From Desulfobulbus sp. (lineage in GTDB: Bacteria; Desulfobacterota; Desulfobulbia; Desulfobulbales; Desulfobulbaceae): DNA of 64,000 nucleotides. The notes beneath the pieces are model-generated. The model was given only the letters and a program-made list of their open reading frames with translations. It was not told the DNA's origin and ran no database searches. This document shows, in pieces, positions 19,307 through 22,268 of the stretch. The stretch's first letter is position 1. Each line of letters starts with the position of its first letter. Location: contig WQZH01000004.1 in NCBI GenBank assembly GCA_009780825.1, positions 62,001 through 126,000 of the forward strand, read 5' to 3'. A program made the position numbers and the translations under genes.

Positions 19307-20269
19307 TCACTTCCGGTGCGGACGCCGCTTTGGCTGCCGGTTTGACCCCTCGACCTGCAATGTTCCCAACTGCAATGCGGGCGGCGGGGCAACCGTCTGA
19401 TCAGCAGACGGCTCGGCTTGTGATGGGGATGGAGAGGATGGCGCTGGTTCTTCAGGCGACGGTGACGGTTTTTCGGCCGACGGTGTTGCTTCTTCGACCG
19501 GCCATGACGGTGTCTGAGGCTGTGTTTGTGTCCGTTCGGCCGCTGCGGGGGATGGAGCTTCCGACGGTGGGTACGGCGAGGCGACCGAACTGCCGGGCCC
19601 TGCCGATCTGGTCACGACATCGCGCCCCGGCAACGATACGGGAGCAGGCGGCATGGCTGGAGATTTGTGCATCCGCTCCTGCCAGATCAGCAACAGGAGC
19701 ACGGCTAGCAGTCCGGCACAACCCACGACCGCAAGCCACAGCCTGGCAGAACGGCAGCAGCGACGCGCCGTTTGCGGGTTTGCCGTTTCCTGCCCGGCCG
19801 GATCGGCCGTTTGCTGACGCGCCTTGGACTCGGCTTGCCCGGCAACCGCCGGAGGATCGCGCTCCATCACCTGCTGCTCAGGCGTCGAAACCAGCCCATC
19901 CGCGGGCACAGGCTGCCACTCACCCGTATTCTGCCCCGCGAGACGGGAAAGAATGGACTCGGCTCCCGCCACGGCCGCTCGCTCTTCGGCCAATCCGGGC
20001 AGATCCGCCACAAGCTGTTCAATATCGCGGTACAGCTGCACCGCTTCCTCGCGGTTTCCGGCGGCGGCTGTCCTGGCCTGATGACGCAGGCGTTCTACCT
20101 CAGCCAGCAGCCGCTTCACCTCCTGTTCCAGCGCCTGCCGCTGTCCAGCGTCGATCTCGTCGCTGAATTGGCGAAGCAGAAACCGGGCTTCAAGCACCCG
20201 CCGTTCCTCAAATTTTGCGCGGATACGGGAAACGGGATGTTCTGGAGCAAACGCAGCGTCACCAGGCAT
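19307..20269 (-). CDS. Coiled-coil, single-TM, proline-rich membrane protein (unknown)
   Basis: About 320 residues and not matched to any family I know. Residues 1-140 are charged and helical, with a likely coiled coil (RQALEQEVKRLLAEVERLRH). A single membrane segment lies near residues 175-195 (LWLAVVGCAGLLAVLLLLIW). The remainder is a Pro/Ser/Glu-rich tail ending in a basic RQPKRRPHRK. The track ORF begins 40 residues earlier, but that part overlaps the small selenoprotein gene in another frame. I prefer the ATG at 20269, which lies 13 bases after the small gene. Topology suggests a cytoplasmic coiled coil and an extracytoplasmic proline arm. It could be TonB-like or a scaffold, but there is no direct evidence for either. 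Confidence 0.65.
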   Translation of the reverse strand: MPGDAAFAPEHPVSRIRAKFEERRVLEARFLLRQFSDEIDAGQRQALEQEVKRLLAEVERLRHQARTAAAGNREEAVQLYRDIEQLVADLPGLAEERAAVAGAESILSRLAGQNTGEWQPVPADGLVSTPEQQVMERDPPAVAGQAESKARQQTADPAGQETANPQTARRCCRSARLWLAVVGCAGLLAVLLLLIWQERMHKSPAMPPAPVSLPGRDVVTRSAGPGSSVASPYPPSEAPSPAAAERTQTQPQTPSWPVEEATPSAEKPSPSPEEPAPSSPSPSQAEPSADQTVAPPPALQLGTLQVEGSNRQPKRRPHRK

Positions 20270-20282
20270 CGTTGCGCACCAG

Positions 20283-20444
20283 TCAAAAAAATATTTTGAG
20301 AGCCGCGTAGATGGCCAGCCCCACACCTGTGGAACCGTAGAACAGGAGTCAGGATGGGCAACCGCTGTCCGCGCGTTTGCGCAGCACAATAAAGGCGGCG
20401 ATTCCAGCCAGAATAGCCGTTGCGGCCATCAGCAACTCTTGCAT
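20283..20444 (-). CDS. Putative small membrane selenoprotein with CPSU motif (UGA = Sec)
   Basis: An overlooked ORF absent from the track because of an in-frame TGA. An ATG at 20444 has a perfect AAGGAGG five bases upstream and lies 24 bases after typA. Thirty-one codons give one hydrophobic helix (LLMAATAILAGIAAFIVL), a basic cluster RKR and the end DSGCPS, then TGA at 20349-20351. The frame stays open for 21 more codons, and these again encode a hydrophobic helix (LLFYGSTGVGLAIYAALKI) before a second TGA at 20283-20285. Reading the first TGA as Sec gives a 53-residue two-helix protein with a redox-type CPSU motif between the helices. A SECIS-like hairpin follows the UGA at the usual distance. 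If UGA is a stop, a 31-residue peptide remains. The function is unknown. Confidence 0.6.
20316..20337 (-). promoter_or_regulatory. Candidate bacterial SECIS element
   Basis: In the RNA after the UGA, CGGUUCCAC-AGGU-GUGGGGCUG folds as a 9-bp stem (three G-U pairs) with a 4-base loop AGGU starting 20 bases after the UGA. This fits the known bacterial rule of a 3-14 base apical loop with an early G, 16-37 bases downstream of UGA. It also resembles the AGGUCU loop region of E. coli fdhF. Confidence 0.55.
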
Positions 20445-20468
20445 GATACCTCCTTGCTGGGGAAAGCG

Positions 20469-22268
20469 CTATCCCCGGATCTTGGCGTCCTTCTTCTTGC
20501 GCAACCGAATGGCCTTGGGCGTGATCTCCACCAGCTCGTCGTCGTTGACGTACGATATGCAATCTTCCAAGCTCATGTCAACCGGTGGGGTGAGGATGAC
20601 CGCATCGTCGGAGCCTGAAGCGCGTATATTGGTCAGTTTTTTGCCCTTGGCCGGATTGACGATCAGGTCGGCCGGGCGGCAGTGCTCGCCGATGATCATG
20701 CCGGGATAGACCTCGATCCCAGGGCCGAGAAAAAGCCGGCCGCGTTCCTGGAGGTTGAACAAGGCATAGGCCACAGTGGTGCACGGTTCCTTGACGATCA
20801 TCACCCCGTTGATCCGATTCTGGATCTCACCGGCATGGGGACCCCATTCGGCGAAGATGTAGTTCATCACCCCCATGCCACGGGTGTCGGTCATGAACAC
20901 CGAACGATAGCCCAAAAGTCCGCGGGTCGGCACCTTGAACTTCATCCGGGTCATCTCCTTCTCCACCTGCATGTCGACAAGGACCCCCTTCAATTTGCCC
21001 AGTTTCTCAATAACCACGCCCTGGAATTGCTCGTCCACGTCCACTGACAACTCTTCATAGGGTTCGAGCAAGCGGCCATCGACTTCCCGCATGATCACCT
21101 GCGGCCTGGTCACCTGAAACTCGTAGTCTTCCCGTCGCATTTTCTCGATGAGAATGGAGAGATGGAGTTCGCCCCGGCCGGAGACCCGGTAGCCAATGGA
21201 CTCGGTGAGTGGCTCGACCTGGAGGGCAACGTCGGAAAGGGTTTCGCGGGCAAGCCGTTCTTCGAGATGGCGCGAGGTGACATATTTGCCGTCCTGACCG
21301 GCGAACGGCGAATCGTTGGGGATGAAGTTCATGGAAATGGTCGGCGGGTCGATCTCGATCAGCGGCAGAGGCCGGGGATCGGCGGGATCGGTGAAGGTGA
21401 CGCCCACGGTCACGTCTTCCATGCCGGCCACGGCCACGATGTCGCCCACCGAGGCACTGTCCACCGGGACCTTCTGGCTGCCGCTGAAACCGAAAATCTT
21501 GTTGATCCGCACCGGGGTGATCGACCCGTCGCGGCGGGCCACGACCAGCGGAGTGCGTAGATCGAGCCGGCCGTTGGTCAGCTTGCCGATACCCAACCGG
21601 CCAAGGTAAGGTGAATAATCGATGGTGTTGATCTGGAGCTGCAGCGGCATCCCGGCGCTGCCCGACGGTGGGGGCACATGCCTGACGATCATTTCGGACA
21701 CCGCCTGCATCCCGGTTTCCGGCGTGACCGGCGCATCTGGCTCGGTCAGCGCATACCCGGCCTTGGCCGAGGCATACACCACCGGAAAGTCGAGGACATG
21801 ATCCGGAGCATCGAGACGGTCCAGCAAACCGAAAACCTGATCGACCACCCAATCGCAACGGGCCGCCGGCTTGTCGATCTTGTTGATCACCACCAGGATG
21901 GGCAGGCTGGCGGCCAGGGCCTTTTTCACCACGAAAAAGGTCTGCGGCATCGGTCCTTCCTGGGCATCGACCAGCAGCACCGCGCCATCGGCCATGCGCA
22001 ACACCCGTTCCACCTGGCCGCCAAAGTCGGCATGGCCCGGGGTGTCGATGATATTGATCTGGTAGTCGCCATACTGGTAGGAACCGTTCTTCGAGGCGAT
22101 GGTGATGCCGCGCTCGCGCTCCAGATCCATGGAGTCCATCAGCCGTTCCGCCACCTGCTGGTTGTCGCGGAACATGCCGCTGTGGCGGAACAGCTGGTCA
22201 ACCAGGGTCGTCTTGCCATGATCGACATGGGCGATGATGGCGACATTGCGGATAAACTTCTGTTCCAT
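20469..22268 (-). CDS. typA: GTP-binding protein TypA/BipA
   Basis: A 599-residue translational GTPase that binds 70S ribosomes and is linked to stress and low-temperature ribosome assembly. The G domain shows AHVDHGKTT (P-loop, residues about 12-20), [10 protein letters not shown] and NKID. Domains II, III and V follow, and the BipA-specific C-terminal domain ([17 protein letters not shown]) is intact. Length matches the family. The ATG follows GGGGCAGGAGCAGT, giving an AGGAG Shine-Dalgarno. It is the first gene of an apparent operon with the small selenoprotein and the coiled-coil membrane protein. Confidence 0.97.

Follow-up and report, generated by a model that had tools for sequence, protein, structure and literature searches.

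On the minus strand of the window (the whole stretch of 64,000 nucleotides that was analysed), directly downstream of the gene typA/bipA, lies a short reading frame that contains one in-frame TGA, the reason why the gene had gone unnoticed (Table 1). It opens with an ATG (20444-20442) 24 bases past the typA stop, runs for 31 codons that end in GCPS, meets the internal TGA (20351-20349) and continues for 21 more codons, LLFYGSTGVGLAIYAALKIFF, up to a second TGA (20285-20283). The ATG of the next gene follows at 20269, 13 bases beyond the end of the frame. If the internal TGA is translated, here as U, the product would be MQELLMAATAILAGIAAFIVLRKRADSGCPSULLFYGSTGVGLAIYAALKIFF. The start codon, the AAGGAGG site in front of it, the 31-codon frame ending GCPS-TGA, the 21 further codons and the 13-base gap had all been described in the original prediction, and direct reading confirmed each of them. 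The product of the gene downstream (19307-20269, minus strand) is charged in its N-terminal part and has a single predicted membrane helix and a tail rich in Pro and Ser; in 17 loci (cluster 3) its relatives come after the selenoprotein gene.

Table 1. Position of the candidate selenoprotein gene, its signals and its upstream neighbour in the window
Feature	Position	Strand	Remarks
Candidate selenoprotein gene	20283..20444	-	53 sense codons and a TGA stop (20285-20283)
Shine-Dalgarno sequence AAGGAGG	20448..20454	-	4-base spacer to the ATG; read directly
UGA, predicted to be read as selenocysteine (Sec32)	20349..20351	-	TGA in 180/180 Sec-form loci; Cys in two homologues
Cys29, putative partner of Sec32 in the CxPU motif	20358..20360	-	Invariant, 180/180
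Putative bSECIS hairpin, conserved 8-bp stem, loop AGGU	20317..20336, loop 20325-20328	-	Covariation; stability against synonymous shuffles
First predicted transmembrane helix (TM1), about residues 3-22	20379..20438	-	Hydrophobic in all members; helix 2-25 in a low-confidence model
Second predicted transmembrane helix (TM2), about residues 33-52	20289..20348	-	dN/dS 0.16 in the distal codons; helix 30-52 in a low-confidence model
typA/bipA, upstream neighbour	20469..22268	-	24 bases before the ATG; context only

Conservation of the internal UGA and of the codons after it

Most of 96 relatives have a frame that is read through one TGA. The internal codon is TGA in all 74 non-identical genes, and three residues around it, Cys (-3), Tyr (+4), and Gly (+10), never vary. 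In 60 of these genes codon +22 is the end of the frame, and the others end by +26. In a larger set of 180 loci (two partly redundant collections, in which 117 loci are less than 80% identical to one another) the internal codon is again always TGA, and the Cys at -3 and the Tyr at +4 are present in all; the final stop, by contrast, is TAA in 73 loci, TGA in 56 and TAG in 51. The original prediction named the motif CPSU: the CxxU pair is indeed conserved, but the family-wide form is C-x-P-U, and CPSU is the version of the host species.

Substitutions in 20 pooled pairs point the same way on both sides of the UGA: dN/dS is 0.21 before it and 0.11 in codons 1-12 after it, and in codons 13-21, past the hairpin described below, it is 0.16 against 0.79 beyond the stop. 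Judged by these ratios, the codons past the hairpin are under purifying selection. Synonymous change is about halved in the hairpin codons (pS 0.25 against 0.42 and 0.51), which suggests an added constraint at the RNA level. The second helix as well as the UGA is conserved among homologues, as the original prediction had anticipated.

These data bear on one alternative: that the UGA is a genuine stop, that the product is a 31-residue single-helix peptide, and that the downstream frame is untranslated. Any standard ORF caller gives this short frame, and the hairpin of the single host sequence is not above chance. Yet TAA and TAG, both common at the end of the frame, never occupy the internal site in 180 loci, a Cys codon stands there in two homologues, and purifying selection on the protein persists past the UGA and past the hairpin. 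We regard a genuine stop as highly improbable.

The putative bSECIS hairpin and the selenocysteine machinery

A hairpin with a 9-bp stem and the loop AGGU, with 20 bases from the UGA to the loop, had been proposed as a bacterial SECIS element and is present in the host sequence. Eight of its nine pairs are conserved with covariation across relatives (per-pair agreement 55 to 74 over all 74 genes), but the ninth, outermost pair is not (22 of 74). Since the host hairpin, folded alone, is no better than its dinucleotide shuffles (z 0.34), the case for it rests on comparison. In an alignment of 61 of the 74 sequences, the 8-bp stem shows 36 double-sided changes and pairing in 92.4% of its cells, a somewhat favourable figure as the 13 omitted sequences are mostly the most divergent ones; no shuffled or slid version of the alignment equals this pairing. 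Column pair 25-32, for instance, is A-U in 29 sequences and G-C in 21. With the protein held fixed, natural hairpins are 4.3 kcal/mol stabler than synonymous-codon shuffles (180 loci, mean z -1.85), against z -0.71 for a control region before the UGA in the same test. The loop reads AGGU in 82 of the 180 loci, and GG falls within its first four bases in 167. Covariation and stability against synonymous shuffles thus bear out the hairpin that was proposed, in its 8-bp form.

The host genome (2.75 Mb in 56 contigs) holds all four genes on which the original prediction depended: selA (609 bits), selB (356 bits), the tRNA-Sec gene selC (72.7 bits, against a gathering score of 47), and selD (368 bits). 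The selD gene itself has one in-frame TGA, and the loop of the hairpin that follows, +23 from the U of this UGA, is as far downstream as in the small gene. Over 96 genomes, which share ancestry and include some incomplete assemblies, the gene and selB occur together in 73, the gene only in 8, selB with the gene undetected in 9, and neither in 6 (Fisher p 0.008). Six of the 8 carriers without selB above the cut-off have selA and the remaining two, without selA, are 84% and 76% complete; assembly gaps are therefore likely in this group. Within the host's family, four genomes of one genus (g9: G031, G041, G049, and G055) are without selA, selB, and the selenoprotein gene, and this genus appears to have lost selA and selB.

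An ordinary tRNA might also read through the UGA, by programmed readthrough or as Trp, to give a short and a long form. The long frame is conserved, as such readthrough would have it, and partial termination at the UGA is normal for selenocysteine genes. Set against this, the SECIS hairpin lies at the distance seen in the host's selD, the replacement found in homologues is Cys, with another Cys at -3, the gene is missing where selA and selB are missing, and UGA also serves as the final stop of the host gene. We give readthrough by an ordinary tRNA hardly any credence. Frame 20444-20283 on the minus strand is, in our view, almost certainly a selenoprotein gene: SelB and tRNA-Sec would decode the UGA as selenocysteine, directed by the bSECIS hairpin just downstream. 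On the comparative sequence evidence, its product would be a membrane hairpin of 53 residues (TM1 - CxPU - TM2) from an undescribed family in which the Sec form is almost universal.

Distribution, gene neighbours and cysteine forms

Profile searches detected the family in 213 of the 258 genomes from the host's order (136 of the 149 of good quality) and, for a second order, in 47 of 199; both are orders of sulfate-reducing bacteria. There is one TGA in all matches of the second order and, except for G072, in each of the host-order matches listed. A DNA pattern scan of named genomes gave at least 80 loci, all with frames that end soon past the second helix. Carriers among the named loci are Desulfogranum, Desulfopila, Desulforhopalus, Desulfofustis, Desulfoprunum, and Candidatus Electrothrix gigas; further ones are Desulfovibrio, Desulfonatronovibrio, and Desulfonatronospira MAGs and one Myxococcota MAG. 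The copy in the Myxococcota-labelled MAG (L180, 1232-1399, minus strand) has a hairpin with a GGG loop and is either a horizontal transfer or a binning error. In three genomes of the second order (G665, G669, and G685) two or three matches with one TGA each occur at separate places and possibly are paralogues. In samples of the whole phylum the family was found in two orders only, bar a few weak or chance matches. We rejected two candidates as chance matches: one on a viral contig (L032), where the matched residues, TLLFYGSTGVGKTTL, form the ATP-binding loop in a clamp-loader-like protein, and another (L066) with TAG. Two weak matches (G423 and G448) lie inside longer stop-free frames of 482 and 236 aa and could conceivably be remote Cys relatives.

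The setting in a typA operon, also part of the original prediction, is of local value: the gene adjoins typA in the host, but the two are linked in only part of the order, and typA is therefore no clue to function. Neighbours vary by lineage (typA; mtnA, which the gene precedes; or other contexts), and we rejected linkage to mtnA as a functional clue on the same ground. The loci examined have no consistent functional neighbour, nor do transporter, metal, selenium or feo genes adjoin the gene in them. In genus g81 the selenoprotein gene stands directly after a rubredoxin gene in four genomes (L070, L233, L239, and L248); in G134, of this genus, its GTG start adjoins the TAG stop of the rubredoxin gene.

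Homologues with Cys in place of Sec, which the original prediction suggested looking for, do exist, with the motifs CPAC and CPMC, in two genomes only (G072 and G059, from another family of the host's order). Both genomes retain selA and selB, and no GGU-loop hairpin is left in the Cys forms. The gene that follows in G059 reads as mtnA, which is also the case for Sec forms in related families. With two Cys forms against more than 200 genomes, the family is almost always found with Sec. The pattern G-S-x-G-x-G of the second helix is doubtful as a helix-packing motif: it overlaps the hairpin and becomes AAxAAA-like both in the Cys forms and in genus g81, which has a shifted hairpin. It is at least partly an RNA constraint. 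A change of the Gly/Ser pattern where the hairpin is lost or shifted is seen at L068, L069, L065, and L239; a transmembrane sequence here seems to bear the imprint of an RNA element.

Possible function and comparison with known systems

AlphaFold places two helices at residues 2-25 and 30-52, with low confidence (mean pLDDT 66). K/R stands at 2.38 in the loop after TM1 against 0.56 at the N-terminus, from which the positive-inside rule would put the loop in the cytoplasm. We tentatively propose that the loop lies at the cytoplasmic face of the inner membrane, that Cys29 and Sec32, at the start of TM2, may cycle between selenol/thiol and selenenyl-sulfide, and that the protein, bound to the membrane, would act as a two-electron redox relay that connects a thioredoxin- or rubredoxin-like soluble carrier with a partner in the membrane. 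These three elements taken jointly are possible, short of probable: the invariant C-x-x-U and the rubredoxin gene directly upstream in four genomes of one genus speak for them, whereas the lack of a consistent neighbour and of a solved relative and the low-confidence structure model speak against. A stronger version is quite unlikely: a virtually Sec-obligate minimal membrane enzyme in which two helices and one C-x-P-U pair would transfer electrons, from the cytoplasmic face, between a soluble carrier on the one hand and menaquinone or a membrane complex on the other, with Cys hardly able to replace Sec.

The first half of DsbB consists of TM1 followed by C-x-x-C at the start of TM2. The small protein shares this order of parts, a first helix and then C-x-P-U where the next transmembrane helix begins, and it might be a minimal DsbB-like quinone:thiol oxidoreductase in which Sec stands where DsbB, in its C-x-x-C before TM2, has the cysteine that faces the quinone. 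Two DsbB models of NCBIfam each hit a single member (E = 0.00047 and 0.055), values that are not significant with 119 members scanned, and DsbB is absent among the Pfam families listed. Moreover, compared with DsbB/VKOR the small family has half the helices and a single redox pair, without the four-helix bundle or the second cysteine pair, and its positive charges put the loop in the cytoplasm, opposite to DsbB. We rejected membership of DsbB/VKOR and find the DsbB-like function rather unlikely.

The Cys-Sec pair might alternatively bind a metal, selenide or persulfide, the protein being a membrane helper that handles it. The predicted membrane selenoproteins do include transport proteins, namely MerT, YeeE/YedE, and SO_0444 (Table 1 of PMC13188914), but in the loci examined no transporter, metal or selenium genes adjoin the small gene, and two short helices offer no obvious channel unless they oligomerize; we would not expect a helper of this kind. 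The Sec form of the MerT-like mercuric transport protein (PF02411) resembles our family as a membrane selenoprotein with C/SxxU; the small family has only two helices and PF02411 is not matched among the Pfam families listed. The FeoB-associated Cys-rich membrane protein (PF12669) is likewise tiny and has cysteines that follow the first helix. Membership there was rejected too: 4 of 119 members touch the model, at best with E 0.056 and below the gathering score, and the loci examined have no feo neighbours.

In Pfam, NCBIfam, PHROG, and PDB, no relative survives the number of scans made. The catalogue of May 2026 holds 119 selenoprotein families, none like a two-helix CxPU protein (PMC13188914). 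When 119 members of our family were compared with Pfam and NCBIfam, none matched the models of these families, and the catalogued families that have no such model were set apart by motif and description only (PMC13188914); the earlier remark that no named family fits holds good. The catalogued CxxU selenoproteins (SelW-like, AhpD-like, GrdA, DUF1858, and the CC/Se motif NF041239; PMC13188914) have in common with ours a UGA-encoded Sec with Cys at -3 and a bSECIS directly after the UGA. The small family differs from them in its two transmembrane helices, its 53 residues, the near absence of Cys homologues, and the lack of any model match.

According to the deep-Sep study, Cys homologues now seem to exist for every known selenoprotein, and its authors note that their filter may discard selenoproteins without them (PMC12013277). 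Three of the genomes screened there, Desulfolithobacter dissulfuricans GF1 (G028), Desulfosediminicola flagellatus (G532), and D. ganghwensis (G533), all have a match to our family (for G028 and G532 the gene itself was read), and the two-helix family is not among the nine new ones of that study (PMC12013277). Plausibly, it was missed because Cys homologues are almost absent. Bacterial selenoproteins are a known class; within the literature searched, the two-helix family, with its size and architecture, appears to be new relative to those catalogued. The known set of selenium-using proteins would then be incomplete, and this family would be a concrete example of what selenoproteome counts can miss. 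Being small and tractable, it also lends itself to the question why Cys does not readily take the place of Sec at some sites.
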